Assembly (NCBI GenBank): GCA_947172415.1
Contig: OX359198.1
Coordinates: 2,573,401-2,637,400, forward strand
Length of the DNA stretch: 64,000 nt
Direction of reading: 5' to 3'
From: Chondrosia reniformis
Lineage: Eukaryota > Porifera > Demospongiae > Chondrillida > Chondrillidae
How positions within the stretch are numbered: position 1 is the first letter of the stretch; each line of letters begins with the position of its first letter. The translations under genes and the position numbers were made by a program. The notes under the pieces were generated by a model that saw only the letters and a program-made list of their open reading frames with translations, did no database searches and had not been told where the DNA came from. Below are positions 3,866 through 63,549 of this stretch, piece by piece.

Positions 3866-5180
3866 AGTATTGAGTAGAAACCTTTGCTATTAATATAGTA
3901 ATAGGATCAAGGAAATGAGATATCTGCATGCCACTCCCCACTATCACACACAAAATACTTGGCCCAGGTGATCTCAGCTGTTTATGTATCAGTTCCATCA
4001 ATATCCAATATGCAACATGAAAAGGTAATATTAACCAGCTAAGGCAACAGTTTAAAGTGTATTGCCAACAGAAAACTATTAACCAATAACTTCGGGTAAA
4101 ATTAATGGTTATCAGTTTTCAGTAACTATTCTGGGTGAGAGTTACTAGGATAGGTTGGCTAAGGATCTTCATGTCAGCAATCCAATGTTGCCATGTCAAC
4201 AAAAGAGGCCAGACGATACACAAGAAGATGGCATGGGAGAAGATATCCCAAAAACAGTCAGAGAATTATATCAATAAATCTGTTCCCAAACAACTCATCC
4301 AATCATCAGTGGCAATAGGGCAAGGTCTGACCAGCCAGCAACTGATCGAATCATCAGTGGAATAGGGCAAGGTCTGACCAGCCAGCAACTCATCTAATCA
4401 TCAAATCACAACTAATATGTTCAACTCATCTAATCATCAGTGGCAATAGGGCAAGGTCTGACCAGCCAGCAACTCATCTAATCATCAGTGGCAATAGGGC
4501 AAGGTCTGACCAGCCAGCAACTCATCTAATCATCAGTGGAATAGGGCAAGGTCTGACCAGCCAGCAACTCATCTAATCATCAATGACAATAGGGCAAGGT
4601 CTGACCAGTCAGCAACTCATCTAATCATCAATGACAATAGGGCAAGGTCTGACCACCAGAAACTCATCTAATCATCAATGACAATAGGGCAAGGTCTGAC
4701 CAGCCAGCAACTCATCTAATCATCAATGACAATAGGGCAAGGTCTGACCAGCCAGAAACTCATCTAATCATCAATGACAATAGGGCAAGGTCTGACCAGC
4801 CAGCAACTCATCTAATCATCAATGACAATAGGGCAAGGTCTGACCAGCCAGCAACTCATCTAATCATCAAATCATAACTAAGCAAACAACAACATAACAA
4901 AGAAAATAGGGTCTGACCAGCAAGAGTACTGTTGTAATCAAAACTAAGCATATGATGAAGAACAATTATAGAAGACTTAGTCGGTTAATTAATAAGGATA
5001 GTTACAAATTTAAGTGACTTTAAGAATCTTAAAGCTTCATAATTTAACTACATAACCCACTCAAACAGTTACAAAAGTTAGGGGACTTTATAAGAATCTT
5101 AAAGCTTCATCATTCAACTATGGCTTTTACACCACCCACTCAAATTGTCTCTAAAGTGTAATTCAACGTACATATTAACG
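3866..5180. repeat. Third copy of the ankyrin-gene intron 1 region (block C)
   Basis: The sequence from about 3870 to 4285 matches 8050-8585, and 4915-5160 matches 8680-8990, in the same order. Shared stretches include GCAATCCAATGTTGCCATGT and TTAATTAATAAGGATAG-type sequence. Between them this copy carries an expanded 48-bp minisatellite, where block B has only one or two degenerate units. Confidence 0.65.
4291..4880. repeat. 48-bp minisatellite
   Basis: About 12 tandem units contain ACTCATCTAATCATCAATGA, then CAATAGGGCAAGGTCTGACC, then AGCCAGCA. Units vary at a few positions, and several lack one or more bases. The equivalent place in block B (8585-8670) has only remnants, so the expansion followed the duplication. 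Open frames through it are by-products of repetition. Confidence 0.9.
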
Positions 5181-8900: not shown

Positions 8901-9454
8901 TTTAAAGATCTGAATCTGATATTAAAACTTTGATTGATATTTTAATCATTCAACTCTCGATTTTACACCACCCACTCATGTCTCCTGACTTCCATCATAT
9001 GCCAAACTGATGAGTCCTTATAAGGACCATCTCTCTAAGTGGCTAAGGGGGAGACTCTGGTTCCTATCAAGTGAGCTTTGCTTCCACCCTATACTCATTG
9101 CACTCCTCAAGAGGGTAGGGTAAAATCCAAAGTTGAATGAAGACTGTTAGAGAGTTGTTTAATTTCGAGCGTAGTGAGCAAAAACTATTAGCCTAGGCCG
9201 CACCACTTAATGCTTCCTACGGGCAGTATACATACAGGTTTAAAAGATTACAAAGATAACATGCACTTGTAACAGAATTAAGGAATCTAAAACATGTTAG
9301 CAGAAAGTAAAGGCTGGAATAGTACAGAAATCTTGGCAGCAGAGAGGTATAAGTATATTATTACCTTGTCAAGTTCCCCACGTTGAATAATTGACGCTAG
9401 AGGAACAAGATTAGGCGACGTAGGCATCGACAAATATTTAGCCATCTTGGCCAT
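5939..9454 (-). CDS. Ankyrin-repeat protein gene, 5' part
   Basis: Five minus-strand exons join in phase 0: 9365-9454, 7791-7994, 6790-6879, 6261-6491 and 5939-6028. Exon 1 begins with a methionine at 9454 (MAKMAKYLSMPTSPNLVPLA) and ends ELDK before GTAATA. The 68- and 77-codon exons each hold an N-terminal helix-like stretch (VSELINNENVN or VSKLINSENVN), then an ankyrin repeat (TPLHVAVEHDHV, EYLLKVGADVD, RTPLDVAVS). The 30-codon exons (NTLIVDLLCKH..., NPPIIMLLCAH...) lie between them. All introns use GT-AG. Ankyrin repeats mediate protein binding; the partner and role here are unknown. The gene may continue to 150-814 and beyond the left edge, through a 5-kb interval full of insertions. The family name is not recognised. 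Confidence 0.7.
7276..7330. mobile_element. Single terminal repeat of the GGTAC MITE family
   Basis: GGTACAAGACAGAAAAAAAC repeats the terminus of the 5189-5713 element. No matching second end was found nearby, so this is a truncated copy or one end of a diverged element. Confidence 0.55.
8946..9140. mobile_element. Fold-back MITE-like element with hammerhead-like core
   Basis: About 195 bp with imperfect inverted arms: left TCATTCAACTCTCGATTTTA, right (reverse complement) TCATTCAACTTTGGATTTTA. The arms continue through CACCCACTCATGTCTCCTGA-type sequence. The centre holds GCCAAACTGATGAGTCC, TTATAA, then GGAC at 9001-9027, an intact 5' half and stem II of a hammerhead. The GAAA box is degraded here (CATC follows GGAC). 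A sister element lies at 57619-57906. Confidence 0.65.
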
Positions 9455-9724: not shown

Positions 9725-10486
9725 TGTCAGCATGTGAGGTAGGGTTTGCACTGTGCCCTCTTTAATGTCAGCATGTGAGGTAGAGTTGTCTCTGTGCCCT
9801 CTTTAATGTCAGCATGTGAGGTAGAGTTGTCTGTGCCCTCTTTAATGTCAGCATGTGAGGTAGGGTTGTATCTGTGCTCTCTTTAATGTCAGCATGTGAG
9901 GTAGGGTTGTATCTGTACCCTCTTTAATGTCAGTATGTGAGGTAGAGTTGTCTCTGTGCTCTCTTTAATGTCAGCATGTGAGGTAGGGTTGTATCTGTAC
10001 CCTCTTTAATGTCAGCATGTGAGGTAGGGTTGTCTCTGTGCCCTCTTTAATGTCAGCATGTGAGGTAGGGTTGTCTCTGTGCCCTCTTTAATGTCAGCAT
10101 GTGAGGTAGGGTTGTATCTGTGCATCTCTTTAATGTCAGTATGTGAGGTAGAGTTGTCTCTGTGCTCTCTTTAATGTCAGCATGTGAGGTAGGGTTGTAT
10201 CTGTACCCTCTTTAATGTCAGCATGTGAGGTAGAGTTGTCTCTGTGCTCTCTTTAATGTCAGCATGTGAGGTAGGGTTGTCTCTGTGCCCTCTTTAGTGT
10301 CAGCATGTGAGGTAGGGTTGTCTCTGTGCCCTCTTTAATGTCAGCATGTGAGGTAGGGTTGTATCTGTGCCCTCTTTAATGTCAGCATGTGAGGTAGGGT
10401 TGTCTCTGTGCCCTCTTTAATGTCAGCATGTGAGGTAGGGTTGTATCTGTGCATCTCTTGCTGCTGTGCTATCTCTTTAATGTCAG
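9725..10486. repeat. 41-bp minisatellite
   Basis: About 18 tandem units contain TGTCAGCATGTGAGGTAGGG followed by TTGTCTCTGTGCCCTCTTTA. Variants alternate between GTCTCTGTGCCC and GTATCTGTACCC, so higher-order duplication of unit pairs is visible. It lies upstream of exon 1 of the ankyrin gene and downstream of the Sema-like gene. Confidence 0.92.
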
Positions 10487-26200: not shown

Positions 26201-29200
26201 TGAGATGGTCTGGATAACCAGACCTTACATACGTAATATATACAAGCAGGGTTTTATGAATGAGGATAACATATGTGTTTCAGTACTGACAGCAATAAAA
26301 TAGTAGTATGTGAATGTCAGCAACGGGAGAATAGTGTTTTGGAATAACACAAAGTACCTGTTGATGCTCCCAGTGACAGTGCCTTAGCAATGTGACCAAC
26401 TGTCTGGATCCCACCATCCGCTATCACTGGGACACCTAAAGCACACACATACACATATATACATACACAAGACTAGAGAATTCACATACATATTACATAC
26501 ATACATATATACACACCAATAAAATATTGTGTAAAATTCTAAATAATAATGTGATTATTGATAAAATGGACACACTTCAAATAATAGTTGCTAGGACAAA
26601 ATCACAAAAGGGAAGAAACTCAATATTAAACAATTTCCCTATGCAGTCATAATCTTTATGTGCGTACAGTATGTACATATAGGACAAACTAAAATTTTCT
26701 GTACGTGTACAAACGTATTTGTGGTTAATATACGAGAAGACTTTACATATATGTATATGTACGTACATACCATATTTTCGAGCATGTTGTGCAACTTTGT
26801 ATACTGCAGTTCCTTGTGAGCGCCCAACAGCCAGCACCTCCTGAGTGATGCAGATTGATCCTGATCCCATTCCAATCCTCAGTCCATCAACTCCACAATC
26901 TATTAAAGTTTTAGCTTGCTGGGCAGTTACAACTATGTACAAATAGAAATACTCTTAAAATCAAGTTTGTTTTTTAGAGAGAGAATGAGATAATTTCCTA
27001 TGCAAGACAAAACATGCTTATTAAAACATCCTGCTTGAAATTCAATGATTGACAATAACTAATTTTTGGCTGTTTCCCTACTTAGACCCCATTATAAAGT
27101 CAGACATTTAACTAATTAACAAGTGCTGACAAAGTAATGGAAACAAATAGGTAGATAATTAAAGGAAATTGAAAGCCAGCTGCCACAAAGCAACAGGTTT
27201 ACTTACCATTTCCTCCTATGACTTGCAAATTAGGATAGTTCTCTTTTATGTGTCGAATCATTTCAATTTGAAATACAGAGTTTCCTTGACTGGAATCCTA
27301 ATATGGAAAATTCAATCAAATTATAAATATACTGTACAAGATAAAGAGTATCAAAACATGCTTTGGAATTTAGAGATGTATATGTATGAAAACGACTGCA
27401 AACACTCAAATGCAACTGAAAATGGCATCGTTGTTGATTTATGAGTTGTTAATTGAAAGATAAAAACATTTAAAAAATGTAATTAGAAGTAGGGATGGCA
27501 GTTCTTCCAACAGTCACTAGTACATCTGGAAAAAGTAGCAAAACAAGAAAGGGATCATGTGACAAGGATAACCATACAGAATGGCATATACGTTTGCATA
27601 TACATTGCTGGGAGCTGGGCATGGTACCCTCATTGTGGAGGGAGAGGCTGAGGTGACAGGTCTCATAGCAAAAGAACAAGGTGGCTTTCGTAAGAGGAGG
27701 GGATGTAGGGACCAATTGCTGTCACTGGTGCTATTAGGACAAACAGAAATGGTGAGAAAACCTGCAGGCATGTTAGTGGCATTCATTGACTTTGCTAAAG
27801 CATATGATAAGGTGAACCGGGAGAAGTTGTGGTCTTGTCTACAGAGTGTGGGTGTGATCGGCAGGTTTCTCAGGTTTCTACAGGCTCTTTATGAAAGGAA
27901 CATGTGCAGGGTGAAAGTGAAGGGGCATATTAGTGAGGCGTTTGAGGTACACACAGGGCTACGGCAGGGATACGTCTTGTCCCCATTACTCTTCTCCCTA
28001 TATATTAACAGTGCTGTCAGGAGGCTGAAGGAGGAGAGGTGTGGTGTGAAGTGTGGGGATGAGATTGTCCCTGGCCTGCTATTTGCAGATGATACCTGCT
28101 TGGTAGCATCAGATGTGTCTGGCATAACTAGGAGTTTAGAGGTATTGGTGGAGTGGTGTGAAGAATAGGATGTGAAGATTAATGTGGCAAAGTCTGTCAT
28201 CATGCATATCCACAAGAAGAAAGCAGAACAATGTGAGGTAGTGTATGAGGTGGAGGGTGAGGAAATCCTGATGGTATCGTCCTATAAGTATTTAGGCTGC
28301 GTGGTCGATGAGTATCTAGAGCTGACAGAGATGGTGGGAGATAAGGCAGAGAGTGGGAGGAGAGCCCTAGGAGCTTGTCTCCAGAGATGTCGGGCAGGGA
28401 TTGGAGATGTTGGAGTTGGCGTTTTCCAGAAATTGATGGGATCTCTTGTGGAGTCAGGTATGATGTATGGGGTTGGTCTAGTCATTTGGAACCCATTGAA
28501 CGTGTTCAGTTACGTACTCTCCATCAGTTCTTTGGGGTGGGCATACTTCGCCCCAAGGTATCCTTGTTATTTGAAATGAGGGCCTTACCTGTTGTGTGGG
28601 AGGTGAAGATGCGTTGTGTGAGGTTCTGGTTGAAAGTTTTGGCAAGTGAGATGTACAAAGGAAGGTTGTTAAGGAAGATTGCAAGACAGGCAGTGGAGTG
28701 TGGCAAGGGAATATGGGTAAAGAATATGGCTAAGTGTTTTGTTGAGTTTGGGTGGCAAGGTATGGATGGAAATGCCATAAAGGGCCTTAGTGAGTCAGAG
28801 ATTAGAGATATGCTATCAAGTATTGCCTGGAGGGAGGTGAGATACAGGTGGCAGAAGGAGATGGAGGAGAGGCCAAAGCTAGGGATGCTGAATGAAATAG
28901 CAGCCCTTGAGGGTGAGTCAAGTTGTGCAGTTTTGGGAAGGAAGAGAGACAGGAATATGATGATGAAGTTAAGGGGAGGTACAGCGGCATTCCAGATAGA
29001 AGTGGGAAGGTGGAAAGGAGTGGTGAGGGAAGAGAGGCTATGCAAGGAATGCAATAGTGGAGAAGTGGAAGATGTCTGCCACTGGATGCTGCGTTGCCAT
29101 GCATGGGACATCGTGAGACGGCCCCTGATGGAGCAAGTCAGTCAGTATGATGGTTTCCGAGGACAGTGTCTTGAGAAGCAGACTGCATTTGTTCTATCTA

Positions 29201-32200
29201 TGGCATGCACCAACTATTCTATTTTAAACTATATCAGTGCAATGTGGTGTGCCAGATTTGGCCTGTGATGTGAACATATTATTATATATATTATTTATAT
29301 TTATTGTCATTTATTAGTGCTACATTGGACTTTTGTAATGTCCTAGCACCTGTTGGTGTGGTGCACTCTAATCATGATATTGATTGATTGATATATATTA
29401 AACTCAACAATGTGGCCAAGTAGTTTGGTGGGGGGAGGGGGGCAGCCCCACGAGTTTTTTAAACTCGAAATACTTGTTTCACTATCCTAGATAATACATG
29501 GAATAGGGCGGCCATGTCTTTCAGCTATCCTACTCAGAGAATACACTACATTACTTCAGTCACCTAACCCCTTCTATAAAAAACATTAGAAATCTTTTCT
29601 ATTAGTCTAGCACTATCTGGACATATCTGTCCACAATCACTAAACTAGCTTTAGTCTGCTAATCCACCATCATTCCAACTAATACAAACCAACCAACAGC
29701 CTCAGTTCAATTCATACATTAGGTTGCTTCTATACAAGACTGACTTACTAAAACCACAACATCAAGTCCAGCATCAACAAGCAGATTCAGCCTATGTCTG
29801 TCCTCTGGATGTGTGCTAATGGCTGCACCAACCAGCAGCTGCTTCTTGGAGTCAAATGAAGCTAAGGGGAATTCCCTGCTCTTGCGGATATCAGTACGAG
29901 CTATCAAAGCCACAAGTTCATCATTTTCATTAACAATTGGAAGCTTTCCTGTAGACAGGTTGGATGAGGGGACATTTTGGATGAGGGGACATGTTGGATG
30001 AGCGGACATGTTGGATGAGCGGACATGTTGGATGAGGTGACATGTTGGATGAGGGGACTTGTTGGATGAAGGGACATTTTGGATGAAGGGACATGTTGGA
30101 TGAGGGGACATGTTGGATGAGGGGACATGCTGGATGAGGGGACATGTTGGATGAGGGGACATGTTGGATGAGGGGACATGTTGGATGAGGGGACATGTTG
30201 GATGAGGGGACATGTTGGATGAGGGGACTTGTTGGATGAGGGGACATGTTGGACGAGGGGATATGTTGGATGAGGGGACATGTTGGATGAGGGGACATGT
30301 TGGATGAGGGGACATTTTGGATGAGGGGACATGTTGGATGAGGGGACATGTTGGATGAGGGGACATGTTGGATGAGGGGACTTGTTGGATGAAGGGACAT
30401 TTTGGATGAGGGGACATGCTGAACCAATACACCTACGTACGTACACTAGTCAGTACTACAAACTTCAATGCAACTGATAGGAGTACTCTAAAACCACTCT
30501 CACCTTTCTTGCTTGCTTGCAGCACCTCCTGTGACTCCCTTAAGGTACAGCCGTGTCGCACAACTACCAGTTTATTCCGAGGAGTCATAACCTAAGAACA
30601 GAAATAATTTAAAGATACAGTTTGTACTAATTGACAAAGTCAATCTTTATTGGCCTTACACAAGTTTAAACTTCCTTTAAACAGACATACGTACAATGTA
30701 TACTACTACGTATATTATGCACTGTGTGTACCTCGCGTGCACTGTGTGTACCTCGTGTACTGTATGTACCTCCCGTGCACTGTGTGTACCTCCCGTGTAT
30801 TGTGTGTACCTCCCGTGTATTGTGTGTACCTCCCGTGTATTGTGTGTACCTCCCGTGTATTGTGTGTACCTCCCGTGCACTGTGTGTACCTCCCGTGCAT
30901 TGTGTGTACCTCGTGCACTGTGTGTACCTCCCGTGCACTGTGTGTACCTCCCGTGCATTGTGTGTACCTCGTGCACTGTGTGTACCTCCCGTGCACTGTG
31001 TGTACCTCCCGTGCACTGTGTGTACCTCCCGTGCACTGTGTGTACCTCCCGTGCACTGTGTGTACCTTATGCAGTGATGTATTCCACTGGTCTTCGCTAA
31101 GGAAATCTATGTCCCTGGATGTAATCATTCCCATCAGCTTACTATTCAAATCTCCATCCTCTATACACAAGCACGTACACATACACAGTTGAAATAGTAA
31201 GAGGTACTTGTTGAGTTCACAATAGAAAATTGATTAATTTTGAGCATCAGCAACACTACTTAGATACAGATGTTGAATGTTTCAACCTGTAGGTCTTCAT
31301 CACCAGTGAATGAGGAGAGATATGTACAACCAGCCACCAGATACAACTAATTCATTGGTGATGAAGATCTACAGGTGGTTTTGGCATTATTGTGGCCAAG
31401 TAGCATTGTTGATACTCAAAGATAATCAGTTTTCTACAAAGATATGTTATGTTCATTCAATATAGTGTAGCAAGCTTGATACACAATTCAGTTACATGAC
31501 ACATCATATATAATAGAGATGTACATACAATAAAATCATACTGCTCCACTGCATGCTACTTTCTGACACACCTCAGATACACTTTAAACACTCAGCTAGT
31601 TGGGTAACAGCTCTAAGTGTCACAAAAGCCTATGGTATAACGGACTAAAGATTCAACCAACATTGAGATCTAACACACAGTCAGTATAGACACATGAATC
31701 TTGTGTAACTCTGGCTCTGAAACTGGATTAACTCTTTACAGTGGTGGATCCAGAGGGGGGGTTGGTGGGGCTGCAGCCCCCCTTTTGCTGTTATGAGAGA
31801 GTTATAACTAAGTATTAAGTCACCTTTTCAAAAAAGAACCTCTCAAATTGAAGTAAATCGTTAGAAAAATTAGAATAATGGGTAGGTTCATAGTCACAAT
31901 GTTGAACTCAAGTTTACAAATGATCTCACCTGACACCTTCGTGTGCTGGCTGTCAATGAATTAGCTCTATTGTGCTACACATTACATTGTGGCAAATGCA
32001 TATATAAAAACGTTGTGATGCAAAGCTCGAGTACAACCCCCCTTTCAAAACTTCCTGAATCCGCCCCTGCTTGAGCATATAAAATTTAGAGCTAATCACA
32101 AGCAAGCTACGTATAATTCCATAGTATTAATCGATGCAACATATCAGATAAGGTATAATCTAGTGTGCACACGTATGCATTTAGGCTTACAAAGGGAGAG

Positions 32201-35200
32201 TATTCAGGTCAGGACTAAAAGGAAACCTAAAATAGTCAAAACACATTTAAACATACTGTTAAGGTGCACATTAGAATAAAGCTTGTTTCATAGCCACAAA
32301 TAGATTACAACAATGAGACTACTTCCTGAGAGCAAAAGCCAAAAAAAGTTGAACAAATAGATAAAACAATGAGATCACTTCCTATGGCGGCCATATTGTT
32401 GATTGGATCAGTAATCGTAAGATCAGCCTTTTGGGATGGAGGAAACTATTTGTGGCCTTCGGAATTCATCTTATAAATATACAAACACGAAACTGCAGCC
32501 TACAATTAATTAATGAGGGTTCACTTCCGGCTCGCCCAATTAAAAGTAACAAAGGCAGGAGAAGAATTATGGCTAGTCAACACACTAGTTGTCTCCATTT
32601 TGCTGTGGAAGTTGGTTGCAATACCATTTGAGATACTGTAAGTGAATACCCGGCAAGAATGTGCCACATGGGATGAGGTGGAGGACAAACTTGTAGGTAA
32701 TCGCTCCGGCTTCAAACCTCGAAAGGTAGTTCGTTCAGTATTATAGAAATACGTAGTTCCTAGTGTTGAGTAGGTAACAGGCATGAAGCATTTCGAAGAT
32801 GCCTCCTGTGGCATTGTACTATGTGCTACCAAGGTGTAACTCAGCTGTCTAGTCTGCAGCACTGCTAACGATTTAACAATTATGGAAGGGATGCACAATA
32901 TGTGATACACAATGGGGTACTTCAAGTCAACTGTATGCATCACACTGTTGACTTGAAGTACCCCATGTAAAACATTGTACACATTATACTACTCCACCAA
33001 ATACCTGTAATTGGAATGCCAGAGAATCCATGCTTCTTCTTAACATCTAAAACCTCCATCACAGTCGCATCAGGTGACAGACACACCGGATCAATGATAA
33101 AGCCTTGCTTATATTTCTTGACCTTTCGGACCTCCTTTGCTTGAAAGTCTGGAGAACAGTTATGATGAATGATCCCAATGCCTCCCATCAACTGGAGTAG
33201 ACAAGGAGAAAGGAATGAGGCACCTCTACAAAGATGTCAGCAATCATAACAAAGATGTCAACAATCACAACATAGATGTCAACAATCACAACAAAGATGT
33301 CAACAATCATAACAAAGATGTCAACAATCATAACAAAGATGTCCACAATTGCAACAAAGATGTCAACAATTGCAACAAAGCAGCATTGCCATTGCCTACA
33401 TACATGCGCACAGGTATGTAAACATATAAATACATAAATCATCTACACAATAATCAATGCATAAAACATACATACCGAATGTTCTCTAAAATGTAGTGTT
33501 TTTAGCAATTAAGATAGTTACAAGGTCATTGTTAAGTAGTATGGCTACATTACCACTTCTTAAAGCTATATAGTCCATAACACAAACTAGGAACCAACTA
33601 AGGATAAGAGGAACCAACTAAAGATAAGAGGAACCAACTAAAGATAAGAGGAACCAACTAAAGATAAGAGGAACCAAACTAAAGATAAGAGGAACCAAAC
33701 TAAAGATAAGAGTAACCACAACTTTACTTACTGCCATGGAAATAGCCATTGCTGATTCTACAGTAAAAGAAGAGAAAATGAAGTAATCTTTAAACATACG
33801 CTAAACTACTCATGTACGTATGTAGGCAATATACATACAATAAATAAGGCGTGAAGGAAGGATTACTACATTCCTCTCTAAAACAAGCAATATTATAGAC
33901 AATAGTTTCATAAAATGAAGTGTGAAAGTTAATTGCATTTAGGCCTGTGCAAAGGCTAGACACATGCATGGCTTTTGGGTTACAGACCACCATCTTGTAA
34001 CTTGCACACAAATGGGATAATGATATACTAAGACTTCAGCTAGAAACACGAAGTCATGCCAAGCAGGTATGAGTCATCACTGGATGATAAAATACTGTAA
34101 ATCCCTTATTATTAGCGTGCTTTTAAATTTAGCTATATTAGCGATTTGACATTTACCGCTAAAATTAGAGTTCGCTAAATATAGTATTACTACTAAATAG
34201 AGTACTACTGTAATCATTTATTACTGTAATTAACTAACAAAACCTCCATGCATTTTGTAAGTCACTAATATTAAATTTCGCTATGTAGGGGTAAAATCGA
34301 GTTTCGCTAAATTTTGGTTCCGCTTAAATAAAGGGATTTACAGTAAGCAGTTAATTGACCAAAGTCTTATTTTGACTGGGGAACCAAAGTTTAAAGTAAA
34401 ATGGCAACCGGTGACCACCTCCCAGGCATCCAAGATGGAAAAATCTCTTGAAATGATTATAATAGTATCCCCATTGGTAATTTACTTCTTCTTCACAGCC
34501 TTTGCACAGGGTATGATATACAACTACATACATACATACATACGTACCACTATTTTACTACAATCAAGTACTACAGAGTGCAAGTTACAAAATGCTCTGA
34601 TTCCTGGGACATCTACAATCAAGTTAAATAATTTTATTAACTGCACAGTATTACGTAGGTGGACAATACGTATAACATACACTCCTGCTACCATCAAACC
34701 TGACATTGAGACATTGAGATCATCACACTTATGCATAAAGAGCAATAGTTTAGAGATTGCAAGCCAGACCATCTGGTCTATCAATTACAGTACATGCAGG
34801 CCATATGTGATACTTTAATTCCCAAAAGTGCCAGTCTTAAAGGGCCTCAGTTAACAACCACAGTGTACCTTGAGAGTGAGCTAAGATATTAACGTTTCAC
34901 TACATTCATACACATGCATGGCTTTTGGGTTACAGACCACCATCTTGTAACTTGCACACAACTGGGATAATGATATACTAAGACTTCAGCTAGAAACACA
35001 GAAGTCATGCCAAGCAAGTATGTACAAGTTACAAGATAGTCTGTAACCAAAGGCCAAGTCCATGTGTGTATACACATGGCCTTTGATAACATTGCGTGTA
35101 TAAACACCTTGCTGACTGACCTGTAACAGTGTCCATTGGAGAGCTGACAAATGGAGTGCAAAGTCGAATACCTCTGGTTAGCTTTGTCTCCAACATCTAA

Positions 35201-37139
35201 GGAGATACATATTAGAGATACAGGCAAGTAATTACAGAGCTACCACAGAGCTACCACAGATCAATCACATAGCAACCATATAGCAACCATATAGCAACCA
35301 CATAGCAACCACAACTGCATACGTAGCAACCACAACTACATACATAGCAACCATAACTACATAGCAACCACATAGTAACCACAACTACATAGCCCATATA
35401 GCAACCACAACAACATAGCAACCACATAGTAACCACAACTACATAGCAACCATATAGCAACCACAAATGGCAGTGGTTTGGTACCTAAACATTAGCATAA
35501 AGAGAGATTATGTACTGCTCACTTACCACATCTGTAACTTGAAAGTCAATGAACCCAGGAAGAATTAGAAAATCGCTAACCAAAAGAAGAGATGTTACAA
35601 TTCATGCTAAAGTAGTTCAACTCAACACTACTTACATTAAAAGCTCTACAAAGTGAATTCATTACTATAATAACAAATTTCCTCCTTTACTGTCTGACTA
35701 TTAGATTATATATAGTTTATATATCATAGGACTGTTTACTGTATAGTACTATGTTTACCATACCACTAAACCAGTACTTAAGTATTATCACCTATTGTAC
35801 CATTTGCAGCTAAGGATGATTGATTCTGTCAGTGTAGTTATCCGTTCAGTGGTCACTCGTGTTAGCGTTCTGTGAGCTATCTTGGCAAGGCGCAAGGATT
35901 AGCTTTGATATTGTAGATTTGAGCTTTCAAGTTAATTACTTAAAATTGATTTACTTAATCAAGGCTAGGGAGTCTGTCTGTATAGTATTTTAGTCTTTAG
36001 AGTACAAGCTCAAATACTCAAGGAAAAGTTGGTTAACTATTGTCTAGCCTTACACTTTTACTTTCAGATGCAAACGGTAAAAGGGGAAAAAATGACAAAG
36101 TTACACCATTTGTCACAATTCATTATTATTGACAACCAACTCAAATATAACTATGCTGAAGTTCATTACCTTTAAAAGAATTAAAGCTATGACTGTCTAA
36201 ATGGATGTGACATTTTCAATTTCAACCTCTGTGAATTACTAACTGCAAAAGGGTGCTCAACCATGATATCACACTTCTCTAAATGGGAAACTTGTACACA
36301 AGTTCATCCCAACTATGACACCAAACTTCTCTAAATGGAAAATTTTTACAAGTTCATTCCAACTACGACACCAAACTTCTCTAAATGGAAAATTTTTACA
36401 AGTTCATTCCAACTACGACACCAAACTTCTCTAAATAGAAAACTTGTACAAGTTCATTCCATCTATGACACCAAACTTCTCTAAATGGAAAACTTGTACA
36501 AGTTCATCCCAACTATGACACCAAACTTCTCTAAATGGAAAATTTGTACAAGTTCATTCCAACTATGACACCAAACTTCTCTAAATGGAAAACTTGTACA
36601 AGTTCATTCCAACTATGACACCAAACTTCTCTAAATGGAAAACTTGTACAAGTTCATTCCAACTATGACACCAAACTTCTCTAAATGGAAAACTTGTACA
36701 AGTTCATTCCTTATTTCAACCCCATATATTCTAGGAGAAAGATTATTGTAACAAATCGTAACTGTGTCAGGTTCCCATTACCTTGATCAAACTCAATTTC
36801 TTATTGAATCAAAAGTGGAAATTCAACCAACACGATTTATAGCTAGAGAAGCGCTTCTCTATGTCTGCGCATTGGTTCAACTGTATTCAAACATGTTTAT
36901 TTAATGCCTATAGTTATTTTATAATCTACATATGCCCTGATGCACCTACGGCTTGTAAAAATGTATTTTTTGGTTACATTTTCGCTGTTAGCAGTATGCA
37001 AATCTAACTTATACGTGAGTCCATCTCCACCCTCAATAAGTTCGTGAACCGTTAAGCCATCATCTTCAGCCCTCTCTGAAACCCTTCGTCTTCTCTTCCT
37101 GCTGGTCATCTCTTCATCGCCGTTATTCAAAAGCGCCAT
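20202..37139 (-). CDS. IMPDH: Inosine-5'-monophosphate dehydrogenase
   Basis: IMPDH oxidises IMP to XMP with NAD+, the rate-limiting step of guanine nucleotide synthesis in the cytosol. Exons (minus): 37009-37139, 35527-35575, 35121-35196, 33732-33757, 33005-33191, 31066-31160, 30504-30591, 29749-29948, 27207-27297, 26771-26932, 26358-26435, 25777-25866, 24527-24581, 23110-23216, 22683-22734 and 20202-20285. All phases agree, giving about 523 residues against 514 in human. Visible are DDGLT...[34 protein letters not shown], two CBS-type repeats (exons 5-8), [10 protein letters not shown] with the catalytic Cys near residue 342, [11 protein letters not shown], the flap SQNRYF and VAQGVSG, and EGGVHSLHS. 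The terminal exon (family ending YEKRLF) was not located. The flap holds a few extra residues ([10 protein letters not shown]). The exon 1 donor is GTTAGA. Introns hold a LINE, hammerhead fold-backs and six minisatellites. Confidence 0.93.
20859..20976 (+). repeat. Fold-back repeat with Penelope-type hammerhead core
   Basis: Inverted arms 20859-20888 (GCACATCCTTCAATTCTTTG) and 20946-20976 (reverse complement GATGGTACATCTTTCTACTG) flank CAGATGAGGACCCTCAGGGT then CGAAATG at 20893-20919. Stem II is perfect (GACCC with GGGTC, loop TCA). The core box reads CAGATGA instead of CTGATGA. It lies in the last resolved IMPDH intron and is the same family as 48428-48556. Confidence 0.6.
22784..22890 (-). 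repeat. Fold-back repeat with intact Penelope-type hammerhead core
   Basis: Arms GAGTATATTAATTTATTGA (22784-22802) and its near complement (22872-22890) surround, on the minus strand, CTGATGAAGACCTCCGGGTT then GAAACGTTC at 22835-22863. CTGATGA and GAAA are intact. Stem II is GACC/GGTT with loop TCCG, and stem III is the minimal ACGT. It lies in the intron between IMPDH exons 23110-23216 and 22683-22734. Confidence 0.65.
23687..24013. mobile_element. Possible pogo/Tigger-type MITE
   Basis: The ends TACAGTCAGAGCTGTCTAAG and, in reverse complement, TACAATAAAATCTTGCTTAT share TACA and downstream CGGACA/CGGGCA, with imperfect matching between. It lies in an IMPDH intron and has no coding content. 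Confidence 0.4.
25225..25264. repeat. Hexanucleotide tandem repeat (CCACAG)n
   Basis: Five to six copies of CCACAG in tandem within an IMPDH intron. Confidence 0.9.
27480..29400 (+). mobile_element. LINE (non-LTR retrotransposon), 5'-truncated, in an IMPDH intron
   Basis: The plus strand encodes a non-LTR reverse transcriptase from mid-fingers onward: [46 protein letters not shown] and the catalytic [11 protein letters not shown], at 27581-28168. A TAG at 28166-28168 interrupts the frame, which resumes directly ([16 protein letters not shown]). A frameshift near 28480-28560 leads to the C-terminal part ([20 protein letters not shown]) and a CCHC-like finger ([19 protein letters not shown]), ending with a stop at about 29268. 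The 3' end carries a TGAT-type tail at about 29380-29393. The endonuclease is missing. The insertion is antisense to the host gene, in the intron between exons 29749-29948 and 27207-27297. Fragments at 54700-55290 are from the same or a close family. Confidence 0.88.
29957..30421. repeat. 17-bp minisatellite abutting the IMPDH exon 8 acceptor
   Basis: About 27 units of GGATGAGGGGACATGTT. On the gene strand each unit reads AACATGTCCCCTCATCC. The last unit runs into the real acceptor CCTGTCTACAG of exon 29749-29948, which looks like a diverged unit (CCAACCTGTCTACAG). Long open frames rich in Pro, His and Ser arise in all three minus frames and are artefacts of repetition. Confidence 0.93.
30715..31065. 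repeat. 20-bp minisatellite that includes copies of the IMPDH exon 6 donor
   Basis: On the gene strand the unit is GAGGTACACACAGTGCACGG. The real donor of exon 31066-31160 (AAG, then GTACACACAG) is the terminal unit of the array. Seventeen further G-GTAC junctions, nearly all AG-GTAC, follow downstream in the intron. Units vary between CCCGTGCAC, CCCGTGTAT and shortened forms. Cysteine-, tyrosine- or threonine-rich open frames on both strands are by-products. Confidence 0.92.
31224..31436. repeat. Long fold-back with two opposed hammerhead-like cores
   Basis: Arms of about 38 bp (31224-31262 and, in reverse complement, 31398-31436) begin AGAAAATTGATTAATTTTGA and AGAAAACTGATTATCTTTGA. Inside, 31279-31304 on the minus strand reads GGTGATGAAGACCTACAGGT then TGAAAC, and 31353-31380 on the plus strand reads GGTGATGAAGATCTACAGGT. 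The first box is altered (GTGATGA), so both are probably dead. It lies in the IMPDH intron between exons 33005-33191 and 31066-31160. Confidence 0.6.
31739..32069. mobile_element. hAT-like MITE
   Basis: The ends are CAGTGGTGGATCCAG and, in reverse complement, CAGGGGCGGATTCAG, followed by G-runs on both sides. CAGNGGCGGATNCAG termini are typical of hAT-derived MITEs. A second copy begins at 63904, and a short fragment with the same end lies near 37950. An 8-bp target duplication is not clear. Confidence 0.6.
33221..33385. repeat. 21-bp minisatellite next to the IMPDH exon 5 acceptor
   Basis: About eight units of AACAAAGATGTCAACAATCA. On the gene strand the unit is T-rich (TTTGTTATGATTGTTGACAT). 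It ends about 30 nt upstream of the acceptor of exon 33005-33191. Confidence 0.88.
33590..33716. repeat. 20-bp minisatellite just after the IMPDH exon 4 donor
   Basis: Six units of GGAACCAACTAAAGATAAGA. On the gene strand each unit contains TTATCTTTAG, a good match to a 3' splice site. The array begins about 15 nt into the intron after the donor of the 26-nt exon 33732-33757. Confidence 0.9.
33961..35085. repeat. 110-bp direct repeat pair plus fold-back in an IMPDH intron
   Basis: Sequence starting CATGCATGGCTTTTGGGTTA occurs at about 33961-34070 and again at 34911-35020, nearly identical. Just after the second copy, 35024-35055 is the reverse complement of part of it (TTACAAGATAGTCTGTAACC), and a small hairpin (CCATGTGTGTATACACATGG) follows. 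The intervening 840 bp holds a pogo-type MITE and no exon. Confidence 0.65.
34093..34345. mobile_element. pogo/Tigger-type MITE
   Basis: The ends TACTGTAAATCCCTTATTAT and, in reverse complement, TACTGTAAATCCCTTTATTT form inverted repeats of about 25 bp next to TA, the target expected for Tc1/mariner-pogo elements. The interior repeats TTCGCTAAAT-like motifs and has no coding content. Confidence 0.75.
35231..35466. repeat. Complex minisatellite near the IMPDH exon 3 acceptor
   Basis: Units mix ACATAGCAACCACAACT and ATATAGCAACC in irregular order. On the gene strand they read AGTTGTGGTTGCTATGTAG, again with TAG ends like 3' splice sites. The array ends about 35-40 nt upstream of the acceptor of exon 35121-35196. 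Confidence 0.88.
36251..36715. repeat. 50-bp minisatellite in IMPDH intron 1
   Basis: About nine units of AACTATGACACCAAACTTCT followed by CTAAATGGAAAACTTGTACA and AGTTCATTCC. Unlike the other arrays it lies in mid-intron, about 300 nt from exon 1. Confidence 0.93.
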
Positions 37140-56860: not shown

Positions 56861-57618
56861 GTAAGTGTACTTCAATTCAGATCAAATCGAATGTATAGAA
56901 GTGTATTGAAGTAAATTGTGTCTGTATAAATGTATGTTAAGTGAAGCATTTAGCGACATCCCTAGTTGCCTAATACCTTGATAATCTATAAACAGAAAAT
57001 GGCAATTTCTTTAGTGACATGCACAGTTCCTATATAGTAATGTAGCTAAGTGCAGCAAAACTATATTATCAGCTGCTCATGGTAGAATCTTACATAGGCT
57101 TGGTTTGACTGTACTAAGTAAAACCTTACTTACTGCTAATTCTCTTGTGATCTAAGGGAGTTAATTGCACTGAACCTGTGCAAAGGCTAAGATGATACAA
57201 TAATTCTACTGTAATATTCATCTTTTAGTTATAAATATATAAATACCTTTTATTTGCTGCCCAATAGGTCAAAACTTTAATTTATGTGCAACATAAAATC
57301 AATTGGTCTCTTCATACCTAGATCTAGTCTTCCTATACTACCCATGGCATGCAAGCCATATTCCAGTAAAATGTGAAGAATTCCTATTACATAATTCTTT
57401 AATTTCATCATCAGTATAAGTAATTGTTAATTGAATACTCTACATGCCATCCTTTGTAGACCATAGTCATGCAATAGTACATAGCTAGTATGTCCATTCA
57501 GTATTTGGTAATGAACCCACGCAGCTCACGCATACTAAAAGGTTGTTCAGTAATCAAAAGGGAGAATTTGCATGTATAGCTAAGCCTATATAAGTAGAAT
57601 GTTGCAATTCTGGTATCA

Positions 57619-57906
57619 TTGTTTGACTTTGGATTTACCCCACCCACGCATGCCTCCTGAGTAGCACAATGAGTTAATATCAAAGTTATTTAACGGGAAC
57701 AGGAGCCTCCCTCAGATTTCCATCATATGTATGCCTTAATGATGAGTCCTAATAAGGACAAAACAGCTGTCTGTGGCTCAGCCATCTTTTTGAGTTAGAG
57801 AAAATATGGCTTCTTTTAAGTGAACTTCATTTCCACTCCCTCCATTATCTCGATTTACTCTTCAGAAAACATGAATGGGTGGCATAAAGTCCAAATTATG
57901 ACATCA
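57619..57906. mobile_element. Fold-back MITE-like element with near-complete hammerhead
   Basis: Arms 57619-57662 (TTGTTTGACTTTGGATTTAC) and 57861-57906 (reverse complement TTGATGTCATAATTTGGACT) are inverted and continue through CCACCCACGCATGCCTCCTG. Inside, 57733-57777 reads GCCTTAATGATGAGTCCTAA, then TAAGGACAAAACAGCTGTCT, then GTGGC. Stem II is perfect (GTCC/GGAC), stem III is the palindrome ACAGCTGT, the cleavage triplet is GTC, and GCC pairs with GGC for stem I. Changes from consensus are ATGATGA for CTGATGA and AAAA for GAAA. Confidence 0.7.
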
Positions 57907-58145
57907 AAGCTTTAGATTGGCTCTTGATCTTAAAATCCACTATTTTGTCGTTAATTCTTTTTGTATGTAAGGGGAGGATTCTAATAAATGTGCAAGCTGT
58001 ATAAAAATGCTTTCTAGGTTTTGAGGTTGAGTTGCCCAGTTATTTACATATCTATATATCTATGTTTATATATACAATGTATAATGTTTCCTTATGATTA
58101 CTGCAGGAACTTCTCAAGCATATACAGGCATGTAAAACAGAGATA

Positions 58146-59390
58146 ATGAGATTTTATCCAACGAGAACCTGGGTGTGGTTGCTATGTTTACTGCAACTAT
58201 TGCTAGCTATATTTTTATACAGTAAGAGAAAAGTATTAACTTATGAAACTCCCAATTTCAATACAGCATCTTCTTTGAAGAAAAATGAAGGATCAGAATA
58301 CAGGCTGCATCTGAATTCAAAGAGACGCATTGAGCTAAATCAAAGTACTGTATCTGTAAGTAGAACTACTGAAGGAACAATGATAATAAGCCGACCTCGT
58401 CAAAAAACTAGGGATTTCCACGCAGAAAAAGAACATGAGTCTACTACTAATGCTACCTTTGTGACTAATGTCTTAGTAAAGAAAACATTTAGTATTTACC
58501 TTGGTAATTACAACAGCTTGAATTCATTTTATGACCACTTTTTTGAAAAGCTTGAAAAGATAATGCAAGAATCTGAAAAAATCTGTAAAATGCCAGACAG
58601 TGTGAAATGCATCTATCAGCACAGCGACGCAGAAAATGCAGATATGCTGTTCTATTGGGTCTCACACTTCAGTGCTAGTCTAAAAAAGCAACCTCATCAA
58701 CTTACAGCTGTCTACAATACAGAGGCATGGGGAAGTAAGCAAAAGATGTTGAGTGCTGATATTCGTATGGACTTTAGAAGAGATGCTGAGGTTGTTGTAA
58801 GTCATGGTTGTGCAATCAAGCCGAGTAGGTATCCACAAAGTGCAAAAAGCAGATCAGGTATAGCTCTCTTTATGAGCAACTGTGGTGCTTCATGGAGAAG
58901 TAACTATATCAAAGAATTGATGAAGCATGTAAAAATTGACTCCTATGGATCTTGTTTCCACAATGTACCTCAATCGGCAAGCAGGTTTGCCCAGGGTTGG
59001 GAATCGTCTCTAATTAAAACTGCCAGTAGGTACCGCATGTTGCTTACATTTGAAAACAAAATCCAAGAAGATTACATCAGTGAAAAGATTTCAAATGCAT
59101 ACTTGTCAGGAGCTATTCCCGTATACTGGGGTCCACCAGATATTTATTCATGGGTTCCTGGTGATCACACTTTTATAGACCCAACCAAGTTCAATGGCGC
59201 AAAGGATCTGGCAGACTACTTGAATCGGGTGCTGACAGATGACAGTCTCTATGAATACCACACTAGCAACTATGAATGGAAGAAGAGTGATGACTATCAA
59301 AAGACCCGTTGTGCAAATTATGTTGAAGGTGCTCCATTCTGTGACCTCTGCAGGAAGGGTTATTTAAAACAAAAGGCAAAAAGCAGTTAA
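58146..59390 (+). CDS. Alpha-1,3-fucosyltransferase-like (GT10), copy 1
   Basis: A 414-residue type II membrane protein: a short cytosolic tail, a signal anchor at about residues 9-25 (VWLLCLLQLLLAIFLY), a stem with NQS and NAT glycosylation sites, then a GT10 catalytic domain. Diagnostic motifs are AVYNTEAW, LLTFENKIQEDYISEKISNA, GAIPVYWGPP and WVPGDHTFIDPTKFNGAKDL. A cysteine-rich end (CANYVEGAPFCDLCRKGY) follows. The family transfers fucose from GDP-fucose to GlcNAc in the Golgi; the acceptor here is unknown. The coding region is one exon after an acceptor at 58106, and an in-frame stop lies upstream of the ATG. The catalytic half is nearly identical to the gene at 62296, while the first about 85 codons differ much more. 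Confidence 0.9.
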   Translation: MRFYPTRTWVWLLCLLQLLLAIFLYSKRKVLTYETPNFNTASSLKKNEGSEYRLHLNSKRRIELNQSTVSVSRTTEGTMIISRPRQKTRDFHAEKEHESTTNATFVTNVLVKKTFSIYLGNYNSLNSFYDHFFEKLEKIMQESEKICKMPDSVKCIYQHSDAENADMLFYWVSHFSASLKKQPHQLTAVYNTEAWGSKQKMLSADIRMDFRRDAEVVVSHGCAIKPSRYPQSAKSRSGIALFMSNCGASWRSNYIKELMKHVKIDSYGSCFHNVPQSASRFAQGWESSLIKTASRYRMLLTFENKIQEDYISEKISNAYLSGAIPVYWGPPDIYSWVPGDHTFIDPTKFNGAKDLADYLNRVLTDDSLYEYHTSNYEWKKSDDYQKTRCANYVEGAPFCDLCRKGYLKQKAKSS

Positions 59391-59826: not shown

Positions 59827-60088
59827 GTGACCAAGGTGTCATCTGGGCTGGAGACTGAAGTCCTGTTAAAAATGGTAGCCCATCCTTTGGGCTTATGAGT
59901 TGGTATTTGTGGTTGATTAATATTTGAGTTGAAGGATCATAAAAATTCCAGCCCTAAGGAGAGCTAAACAGCTGTCTGTGGTGAATGTTTTGATGTTCTT
60001 TTCCAACTTTGGATGACTGGAGGCAATCACTGGTTAGCAATACTTCAGTGCACATGCCCCAACCAATATATATGAGACCTTGGTCCCT
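59827..60088. mobile_element. MITE-like element with hammerhead-like remnant
   Basis: The ends GTGACCAAGGTGTCAT and, in reverse complement, GGGACCAAGGTCTCAT are inverted. In the middle, 59950-59981 reads AGCCCTAAGGAGAGCTAAAC then AGCTGTCTGTGG, which keeps the palindromic stem III, the GTC triplet and TGTGG of the 57619 element. The 5' box is lost. Confidence 0.5.
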
Positions 60089-62240
60089 TGGTTGGATTGA
60101 CATATTTATATACATTTTATGTGTACATTCCAGTATTCCAGTAATATAGCCCTTGCATATAATATAACCAATTAACTGCCATTTTAATGTACCTATTCAT
60201 GGTATGATGGTGACTAGTTGAGTCTGTCAGCCAGAAAAGACTACTTACGATAGATATGCATTTCTCAAACAGAAATATTTCAATTAATAACCCTGTGGTC
60301 TCATTGCCTGAGGTACAACTGCATGGAAGCCATTGATATAGTAGTTTGATGTATCCCCAGACCCCTCCCAGCCATTATACATAACCTAATGGGCAGGAGA
60401 AAAGCTACCAGACCCTATACCCCGTGAATAGCATAAGGCATATGCACTTATACTTATATTATACTTGCCAACGTTAACCAGTTTATATCAACTGATCATG
60501 ATTATGGAGGAGAGATTGAAGTCTGGTTACATGAGACTGGTGATTGTTTGTTTTATAGCAAAGAAAGCTTTTTTTAAATGTATAGAATATAACTTGAAAC
60601 AGTTCTGGAGTATACATATGACTTCATTATTATTATATATTATATATTTTTATTATTATAAATTTACCATATGCTCACCAGCACTAGGGCTAAACTGCCC
60701 TATGAGGCACAAAACAACAATAATAACAAATATATACACGTATATGCCAAATGAATTCGAAACAACAGTGACTTACTAATGTTTATGCCAAATGGAGCAG
60801 AAGTGGTTGCCTTTCACTGGAAAACTACGTATATAGCTTTGCACAGCTGCAGTATATATATATATATATATATAACTATCCTCATGCAAAACAGCCATTA
60901 TTGACTATTATACCACACCAGGTCCTATATACCACCAAGGAAAATGCTGTGCTGCTTTACAAATACATGCAGGTATTACAATCTATACTACCAATGTGCC
61001 CAGTGAGCCTTTTGTAATTAGAGAGTAATTAAAAGACCAGCTATATACAACAACAAGTTAAATAAAAACATTCAGCTCTCATGATGCATCCATCCAAACA
61101 CAGAAGTGATTTAATTTTGAAATATTTTACTTACACGGAAGCGCTATTAACTATATCCCTATAAAATTCACCTAGGCATGCACCTTAAACCGCAATGAAG
61201 GAAACGCAAAACACGTCACATATAACCTTTTCATGAACTGGAGCTCTCTATTTGTGAGAAACGTTAATAGACCAGTGAGTTGGTGTGTATATAGTTACCA
61301 TGACGGCGAGGACTTGTAGTTTCTGTGTAATCATAGGTGTAATTCATTCAAATTTTGGCTTCTTTACCAATCATTTCGCTCTGAAGAAGAAAATAGATGC
61401 ATCAGGAATACATTTATTCAATTTATAAACGACACTTAATTACTGTACCTTATAATGCTCAAATTCTACGCGTATATGGGGCGAAAGAGTATAAAAATTT
61501 CAGGAAGGTTCTAAAACTCCACAATGTATAGTTCTGTCTTTCGGATAGATAATAGCATAGCTAGATTAAAACTGAGAGATATTCAAAATTGAAAAGAGCA
61601 GCCAGGGCGGGCGCTATATAGCTATAAGTGATAAAGAAGCCAGAAGCCTAGTAGATAAACTGAGATGTGGGGCTAAAAGGTTGAAGGTAGATGGGTAGGT
61701 CTATAATGAGACTATGAGGGAAGAACGCATTTGTTTACATTGTAACAAATGATAATATGTATTTTCTTGTGAATTGTGAAAACCAGAAGAACACTTATTT
61801 TTAATTCTAGAATATGATTCTGTCTGAAACTTGTAGGAAATACTAATATATATGGTTTCTTTGAGAAGAAGTGTTAGTAGTAATACATTATGTATTAGAA
61901 ATTTATGTTCATTGCTGTATTACCCATTTTCGATTTAGTACCATCATATCATAGTCACCAAGCCCTTTCAACTCTTATACCTTTTAACTTTCTATTTTCG
62001 AATATATTGATAAACTATTTATACAATAACTGATTGTAGATTTGCTTGTAATATATATAAAAATAAACCATGCATATGATGGAACTAATATATACAAATG
62101 TATAGGGAAAACGAAACAACCGGTACCATCCATGCATAGAGAGTACTACCTTACTCTCTGATAGTGCAATCTGTATAACTACGTCTACTGTATATATAGT
62201 GAATTACATTAAAAGTGTTTCCTTTCCAACCATTTTCAAA
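60089..62240. other. Interval between the two fucosyltransferase genes
   Basis: No exon recognised. A LINE-like 3' tail is possible at 60665-60730 (CACCAGCACTAGGGCTAAAC, then CAACAATAATAACAA). A (TA)n run lies at 60853-60874. Promoter and untranslated exon of the second gene are expected here but cannot be placed. Confidence 0.4.
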
Positions 62241-62295
62241 TAGGAACTATTTCCATTCAGTCAATACATCACTTTTTGAACAGCATGCAGAGAAA

Positions 62296-63549
62296 ATGAG
62301 ATGTTATCCAAAGAGATCCTTTGTGTGGTTGCTGCTTTTAGCACAATTTTTGCTAGCTGTTTTTATTTACAGAAATAAGCATATATATTTCACTAGCAAG
62401 ACTCCTATGTTCAATGTAGTAACCTCTTTAGAGAGCAGTGAAGCCTCAGGAAAAACACTGCATCTGAATTTAACGAGACGCATTGAGCTAAATCAAAGTG
62501 CTGTATCTGTAAGTAGTACTACCGAAAGGACAATGACAATAAGCCAACCTCGTCAAAATAGTAGGGATTTCCATGCAGAAAAAGAACATGAGTCTACTAA
62601 TGCTACCTTAGTGACTAATGTCTTAGTAAAGAAAACATTTAGTATTTACCTTAGTAATTACAACGGCTTGAATTCATTTTATGACCACTTTTTTGAAAAG
62701 CTTGAAGAAATAATGCAAGAATCTGAAAAAATCTGTAAAATGCCAGACAGTGTGAAATGCATCTATCAGCACAGCGACGCAGAAAATGCAGATATGCTGT
62801 TCTCTTCGGTCTCACACTTCAGTGCTAGTCTAAAAAGGCAACCTCATCAACTTACAGCTGTCTACAATACAGAGGCATGGGGAAGTAAGCAAAAGATGTT
62901 GAGTGCTGATATTCGTATGGACTTTAGAAGAGATGCTGAGGTTGTTGTAAGTCATGGTTGTGCAATCAAGCCGAGTAGGTATCCACAAAGTGCAAAAAGC
63001 AGATCAGGTATAGCTCTCTTCATGAGCAACTGTGGTGCTACATGGAGAAGTGACTATATCAAAGAACTGATGAAGCATGTAAAAATTGACTCCTATGGAT
63101 CTTGTTTCCACAATGTACCTCAATCGGCAAGCAGGTTTGCCCAGGGTTGGGAATCGTCTCTAATTAAAACTGCCAGTAGGTACCGCATGTTGCTTACATT
63201 TGAAAACAAAATCCAAGAAGATTACATCAGTGAAAAGATTTCAAATGCATACTTGTCAGGAGCTATTCCCATATACTGGGGTCCACCAGATATTTATTCA
63301 TGGGTTCCTGGTGATCACACTTTCATAGACCCAACCAAGTTCAATGGCGCAAAGGATCTGGCAGACTACTTGAATCGGGTGCTGACAGATGACAGTCTCT
63401 ATGAATATCATACTAGCAACTATGAATGGAAGAAGTGTGATGACTATCAAAAGACCCGTTGTGCAAATTATGTTGAAGGTGCTCCATTCTGTGACCTCTG
63501 CAGGAAGGGTTATTTAAAACAAAAGGCAAATTCTGCCAAAGGCAATTAA
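62296..63549 (+). CDS. Alpha-1,3-fucosyltransferase-like (GT10), copy 2
   Basis: A 417-residue paralogue of the gene at 58146. The ATG at 62296 is chosen because it aligns with copy 1 (MRCYPKRSFVWLL against MRFYPTRTWVWLL). The open frame reaches upstream to 62215, but crosses a likely acceptor (TTTTCAAATAG, ending 62243) that matches the acceptor position of copy 1. Anchor, stem and GT10 motifs (NTEAW, ENKIQEDYISEK, IPIYWGPP, PGDHTFIDP) are all present, so it looks active. Differences in the catalytic half are few (for example SVSHF for WVSHF, CDD for SDD), and the C-terminus ends NSAKGN instead of KSS. The 3' flank stays similar for about 130 bp after the stop. Confidence 0.9.
   Translation: MRCYPKRSFVWLLLLAQFLLAVFIYRNKHIYFTSKTPMFNVVTSLESSEASGKTLHLNLTRRIELNQSAVSVSSTTERTMTISQPRQNSRDFHAEKEHESTNATLVTNVLVKKTFSIYLSNYNGLNSFYDHFFEKLEEIMQESEKICKMPDSVKCIYQHSDAENADMLFSSVSHFSASLKRQPHQLTAVYNTEAWGSKQKMLSADIRMDFRRDAEVVVSHGCAIKPSRYPQSAKSRSGIALFMSNCGATWRSDYIKELMKHVKIDSYGSCFHNVPQSASRFAQGWESSLIKTASRYRMLLTFENKIQEDYISEKISNAYLSGAIPIYWGPPDIYSWVPGDHTFIDPTKFNGAKDLADYLNRVLTDDSLYEYHTSNYEWKKCDDYQKTRCANYVEGAPFCDLCRKGYLKQKANSAKGN

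Follow-up and report, generated by a model that had tools for sequence, protein, structure and literature searches.

The closest described relatives of the element analysed here are the metazoan non-LTR retrozymes (Cervera and de la Pena, 2020; PMC7229834). The main text of that paper presents them as non-autonomous elements with a type I hammerhead in a unit of ~170-400 nt, found in tandem copies and with duplications of >4 bp. For the return of animal retrozymes to DNA the paper offers a hypothesis, in which PLEs figure as strong candidates for the mobilising machinery. Earlier work cited in the same main text found such repeats to be patchy in most metazoan phyla, so their presence in a sponge is perhaps no novelty; the words 'sponge', 'Porifera' and 'inverted' do not occur in that main text.

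Frangieh et al. (2024; PMC11167929) report that the purified Poseidon PLE of Anolis cuts both strands and extends both. Its RT started at two internal sites, and the stretch between them makes up the genomic tail; the top and bottom strands were not seen to differ in start site. Mutating the ribozyme did not reduce insertion relative to wild type, and unprocessed RNA was used in vitro. For rotifer Penelope, Arkhipova et al. (2013; PMC3846280) describe TSDs of 8-10 bp and inverted pLTRs, one of which may bear a 31-bp tail; they prefer antisense-RNA self-priming as the origin of head-to-head PLEs.

The element of the sponge Chondrosia reniformis resembles the metazoan retrozymes, as portrayed in their main-text description, in its type I hammerhead, unit size, tandem copies, duplications and lack of autonomy. 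However, the main text of PMC7229834 describes those retrozymes as direct tandem repeats, whereas head-to-head arms and two end sites are common in C. reniformis. With Poseidon the element shares a hammerhead, two internal sites (RT start sites in one case, end sites in the other) and, if our reading is correct, extension on both strands. With rotifer Penelope it shares head-to-head terminal parts, a one-end tail and TSDs (8-10 bp in the rotifer). PLE hammerheads are termed minimal in the main text of PMC7229834. The plant LTR retrozymes (PMC4918200) are also non-autonomous hammerhead elements with a circular RNA, which in C. reniformis is inferred; they differ in their type III hammerhead, LTRs with a primer site and 4-bp TSDs (PMC7229834, main text). 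Among the listed literature matches and in PMC7761336, we found no retrozyme reported to have a head-to-head, two-site anatomy and no sponge reported to contain a hammerhead element. The literature search returned nothing that paired a hammerhead with Porifera, or twin priming with a hammerhead.

The window, by which we mean the whole stretch of 64,000 nt that was analysed (C10:2573401-2637400), contains two decayed insertions, A and B, that stem from a small mobile RNA element bearing a self-cutting hammerhead. Better-kept sister copies suggest, at the level of sequence, that this element spreads as RNA, probably as a circle, and not as a DNA transposon. Its unit is 351 nt long, position 1 being the base that follows the cleavage site; the two preferred ends on it are called E1 (~U140, positions 133-149) and E2 (~U193, positions 183-205). 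The features of the window are:

57615-57949, plus strand: retrozyme insertion A, two head-to-head arms, left end E1-type and right end E2-type, aligned to the 351-nt consensus
57615-57710, minus strand: left arm of insertion A, unit 138 down to 73 aligned, continuing to ~30 by eye
57711-57949, plus strand: right, ribozyme-bearing arm of insertion A, unit 295-351 then 1-193 (blastn E 1e-27)
57733-57777, plus strand: decayed type I hammerhead in A (RF00163, 27.0 bits, E 0.022)
57897-57949, plus strand: approximate tail of A, the E1-like to E2 stretch with the hairpin region (57895-57949 aligned to unit 138-194 of the L063 copy)
8886-9143, plus strand: retrozyme insertion B, the sister, left end E2-type and right end E1-type, ribozyme without its 3' half
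2212-2636, unstranded: segment similar to the surroundings of insertion B, containing a third remnant at 2392-2445 (unit 78-132)
59950-60035, plus strand: decayed copy of a second ribozyme family (79.5% to the L129 copy over 88 columns, E 1e-14)
34405-34443, minus strand: fragment similar to the second family (85% over 40 columns, E 2e-6)

An earlier note on this DNA had seen a nearly full hammerhead within an element at 57619-57906. The element is there, but its extent on the consensus is longer, its ends lie at U138 and U193, and its approximate tail falls mostly beyond those coordinates. The alignment of the left arm covers 57615-57678, the final 32 bp being placed by eye. Stem II (GTCC/GGAC), ACAGCTGT and the GTC triplet are retained as the note had described, but the core departs from the consensus at two positions (CTGATGA to ATGATGA and GAAA to AAAA). 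The second change may reflect CpG decay, because the consensus G at this position belongs to a CpG. The Rfam Hammerhead_1 model matches 57733-57777 over its full length, with a score below the 34-bit gathering score, and no Rfam match reached the gathering score anywhere within the 64,000-nt window. With 80% identity to the consensus in ungapped columns, A is the lowest of the 88 copies measured. Its best flanking duplication is AATTCT (score 6), which is within the null.

Insertion B consists of a minus-strand arm at 8886-8988 (unit 193-91) and a plus-strand arm at 8988-9143 (unit 300 on to 137). The note had given the sister as 8946-9140 and had said that it keeps CTGATGA. CTGATGA and stem II are indeed kept, but a 23-nt gap deletes GAAAC through the cleavage site. 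Both window copies thus appear damaged, and we rejected them as working ribozymes. A repeat search on the two insertions detected one 31-nt arm pair, in B, and did not detect the arms of A. Window segments 2212-2636 and 8726-9319, which surround the third remnant and insertion B, respectively, are similar. As 2212-2636 resembles the flanks of B, the two may derive from one insertion that was duplicated.

Several other features of the window were recorded. The second-family copy at 59950-60035 is located 2 kb from insertion A. Two similar ORFs at 58146-59390 and 62215-63549 look alpha-1,3-fucosyltransferase-like by eye, and a LINE-type RT ORF lies in pieces at 27581-29268, also by eye. Clean minisatellites are found at 4291-4870, 9725-10452, 29954-30418, 30718-31067 and 36258-36710.

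The 351-nt unit was derived from 90 merged, non-redundant loci of the genome (117,379,552 bp, 15 contigs), leaving alignment pieces below 75% identity out of consensus building. The consensus has an intact hammerhead core and stem II. Copies are 80-99% identical to it, with a median of 95% in 88 of the 90 loci (two with <100 compared bases were left out). The unit is non-coding: the longest open stretch on the repeated unit is 56 codons, and no ORF for RT and GIY-YIG was found in it. PLEs, in contrast, encode both RT and GIY-YIG, so the unit is not a PLE although it inserts in a PLE-like manner. The predicted circular fold of the unit has an energy of -126.2 kcal/mol (z -6.4 against 100 shuffles). 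In this fold hammerhead stems I and II form, while the core CTG pairs with CAG and stem III is not left free. Thus, according to the folding model, the catalytic hammerhead fold is not the minimum-energy fold of the circular unit. An 11-bp hairpin is predicted at unit 151-179, between E1 and E2.

The exact core pattern of this first family occurs at 94 places in the genome, compared with 0 for the reversed-pattern control. A second family, with stem II GCCC/GGGC, occurs at 144 places (reversed control 0) when the pattern additionally permits CTGANGA. Counted across the genome, the second base pair of stem II reads T-A at 94 places, C-G at 144, C/A at 4 and T/G at 3; judged by these pairs, the second family is a sister family with a compensated stem II. 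The arm pattern, with up to 3 mismatches, was found at 743 places (control 0), and at least 65 Rfam hammerhead matches were obtained genome-wide, 51 of them above the cut-off (73 scored of 11,921 candidates). The copy in the window is weak by itself at 27.0 bits, which would suit a hammerhead likeness that arose by chance. However, we give that idea virtually no credence and rejected it, given the 94 and 144 exact places against none in the controls and the 51 Rfam matches above the cut-off.

Sequence was fetched for 82 of the 94 core places, and the remaining 12 contribute no sequence to the counts. The consensus was the note's own proposed check, and CTGATGA, GAAA and stem II are all present in it; 70 of the 90 loci hold the exact core, and most were chosen by the core, so core conservation is partly the result of selection. 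At ribozyme positions outside the search pattern, conservation is slightly higher than elsewhere (0.959 versus 0.937, P 0.05). An intact consensus with a palindromic stem III, as the note had foreseen, supports at the sequence level the conclusion that the hammerhead family is real.

Three second-family copies (L129, L130 and L013) each end in a small hairpin, AGCC/GGCT, with CTCCCC(C)TTTTC after it, which is comparable by eye to AAAGTTCCCCTATTTTTTCC of the first family. Beyond the ribozyme the bodies align only loosely. If an enzyme reads the tail, bodies that have diverged would be expected to keep the same tail motif, as these three copies may do.

We next consider the anatomy of the insertions. 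Where pieces are neighbours (70 cases across the 90 loci, excluding pieces that lie >100 bp off a locus's main chain), 60 are head-to-head, 1 is tail-to-tail and 9 are on the same strand. Among the core places, neighbours on opposite strands and no more than 1.2 kb apart are minus-plus in 7/7 cases for the first family and in 11/11 for the second (100 of the 144 places listed), and same-strand neighbours are spaced by 352-355 bp (5 pairs, first family) or 359-363 bp (8 pairs, second-family list). With the RNA 3' direction taken as outward, 149 of 180 ends face outward. E1 accounts for 69 of these and E2 for 55, together 124/149, in windows that cover 40 of the 351 unit positions. By end class, the 90 loci comprise E1+E2 (38), E1+inner (17), E1+other (12), inner+other (8), E2+inner (6), E2+other (5), E2+E2 (3) and E1+E1 (1). 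Thus 48 loci do not have both ends classed, and in 31 loci only one of the two ends faces outward.

When both ends are classed, E1 is paired with E2 in 38 of 42 insertions (P 3e-8). The loci are partly interdependent through shared junctions. Once these were collapsed the pairing held in 25 of 29 (P 5e-5), collapsing being defined as an inner joint within 4 nt, which may merge distinct events or miss duplicates. Inner joints and arm lengths vary among loci, and the second arm often carries unit sequence that is missing from the first, for example the tail or the ribozyme.

Direct duplications flank many insertions. The mean match is 8.4, compared with 4.7 for the null and a maximum of 5.3 in 200 shuffles. 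Measured against a null of mismatched flanks, 34 of 59 two-ended insertions exceed the 95% level and 27 the 99% level; for insertions with one outward end the numbers are 10 and 6 of 31. Duplication length is ~8-14 bp by reading, and variable. The flanks are 70-71% AT, compared with 63% in the window. By eye, several insertions lie within TAGTTGTATGTAC-type repeats (loci around C7_3373700, C8_2499233, C9_2973900 and C14_3433200). Some loci in these repeats have shared junctions and look like later duplications.

MITEs are short and have inverted arms and duplications. The C. reniformis element is like them in all three respects, and the note had proposed a MITE, that is, a DNA transposon, that carries a hammerhead. 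Its observation of inverted arms was correct, but the tips differ, unlike terminal inverted repeats. We rejected matching terminal inverted repeats because 38 of the 42 classed insertions are tipped by E1 and E2, which are different sequences. Arm lengths, joints and duplication lengths also vary, and whole units occur head-to-tail in tandem, so we regard a MITE as exceedingly improbable. We instead read each arm as a reverse transcript of the same ribozyme unit, the two being placed head-to-head, because there are two start points, lengths and inner joints are variable, and many of the insertions lie within variable direct duplications. The note had left open spread through RNA, DNA or both. 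RNA spread explains the arms, and the DNA-transposon route is unneeded.

Snap-back self-priming of a single cDNA, which PMC3846280 proposes for rotifer Penelope, could also give head-to-head arms. Equal inner positions within 10 nt are found at 7 of 60 joints, some of them shared junctions, but the other 53 are unequal and the second arm often holds sequence that the first lacks. We therefore rejected simple snap-back and think the self-priming route very unlikely.

We consider it likely that the element is a non-autonomous animal retrozyme whose ribozyme-made RNA, probably a circle, is copied by Penelope-type machinery starting at the two sides of a staggered cut. The insertions have the inverted ends, one-end tail and TSDs of Penelope-like anatomy. 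They also have a canonical type I core, TSDs of >4 bp and non-coding head-to-tail units whose 351 nt fall within the 150-450 bp of metazoan retrozymes, as expected for this class.

Abundant GIY-YIG matches in the genome count as support for this machinery. There are at least 150 (150 of 382 candidates scored), and they are weak, with a best E of 4e-7 and most at ~1e-3. Many fall within open frames of 700-1010 codons. Neighbouring matches within 6 kb (18 pairs among the matches listed) are minus-plus, the head-to-head order, in 12 cases, plus-plus in 4, minus-minus in 1 and plus-minus in 1. In one partial ORF, at locus L131, a GIY-YIG match close to the beginning of the frame (Pfam E 1.5e-4, 22.4 bits, cut-off 22.6) is followed by a PLE-like RT recognised by eye; Pfam found no RT domain in this ORF, the 3' end of which is missing. 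PLEs with GIY-YIG before the RT have been described. Rfam found no hammerhead in L131, only one weak, unrelated match. None of the RVT_1 matches listed (150 of 1688 candidates scored) was tied to a GIY-YIG ORF. L131 also carries a short retrozyme insert (1671-1741, unit 116-191) upstream of a CHCH-domain-like exon (by eye) and of the GIY-YIG ORF. We rejected this stretch as the PLE's own tail, as by eye it is a separate short insert between two AAATGCAAT.

L1 twin priming yields inverted inserts with duplications. A retrozyme mobilised in this way by a LINE enzyme would therefore be compatible with the inverted inserts and duplications seen here, and RVT_1 ORFs are abundant in this genome (150 of 1688 candidates scored). 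However, inversion is a minority outcome for L1 and one end lies at the 3' tail, whereas the joints seen here are commonly head-to-head and the outward ends prefer two internal sites, as in PLEs. A LINE route thus seems unlikely to us.

Our preferred model, with Penelope-type machinery, can be set out in steps. Transcripts would self-cleave into 351-nt units, which, by analogy with published retrozymes, would be closed into circles. A putative Penelope-type enzyme with a GIY-YIG nuclease would cut the target with a stagger. The 3' end on one side of the cut would prime RNA copying at E1 and that on the opposite side at E2, these start sites lying ~50 nt apart across the small hairpin. Each cDNA would extend inward, at times for more than one turn, and the two would join head-to-head. 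The product would have inverted arms, two unlike tips and a duplication of ~8-14 bp. It would thus look like a MITE. Two published results count against parts of this model: the start sites of Poseidon were not seen to differ from one strand to the other, which speaks against one site per strand, and the insertion of its ribozyme mutants like wild type speaks against a need for cleavage. The preference for self-priming in the rotifer study is a further argument against it.

One-piece insertions bear on the form of the template. Seven of 28 are 351-371 nt long, one turn plus a little more, and six of these seven end at E1. The set of 28 is the 31 single-outward-end insertions minus one three-piece insertion and two second-family matches (46 and 51 nt); it retains the duplicated pair C7_1989400/C7_2003700 and C1_4616496, which has a short E2 arm by eye. 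As a variant of our model, the same machinery could copy a linear multimeric RNA instead of a circle. Tandem copies are present and Poseidon accepted unprocessed RNA in vitro (PMC11167929), but the clustering of one-arm inserts 5-20 nt beyond one turn (7/28) is not predicted by a linear multimer, and we find this variant rather doubtful. The one-turn inserts favour a circular template, without proving it.

Taken further, the genome may preserve, in fossil form, the integration step that has been missing for animal retrozymes; we judge the case for this proposal evenly balanced. A pair of Penelope-type enzymes would act on one ribozyme-made RNA circle, cDNAs would start at two fixed sites that flank a tail hairpin, one for each side of the staggered cut, and the rolling cDNAs would meet head-to-head. 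The two start sites, the E1-E2 pairing and the one-turn inserts make this a prediction that is testable with one purified enzyme and one 351-nt RNA. If it is true, some animal MITE-like repeats would be products of circular RNA, and some repeats now classed as MITEs may be RNA-derived.
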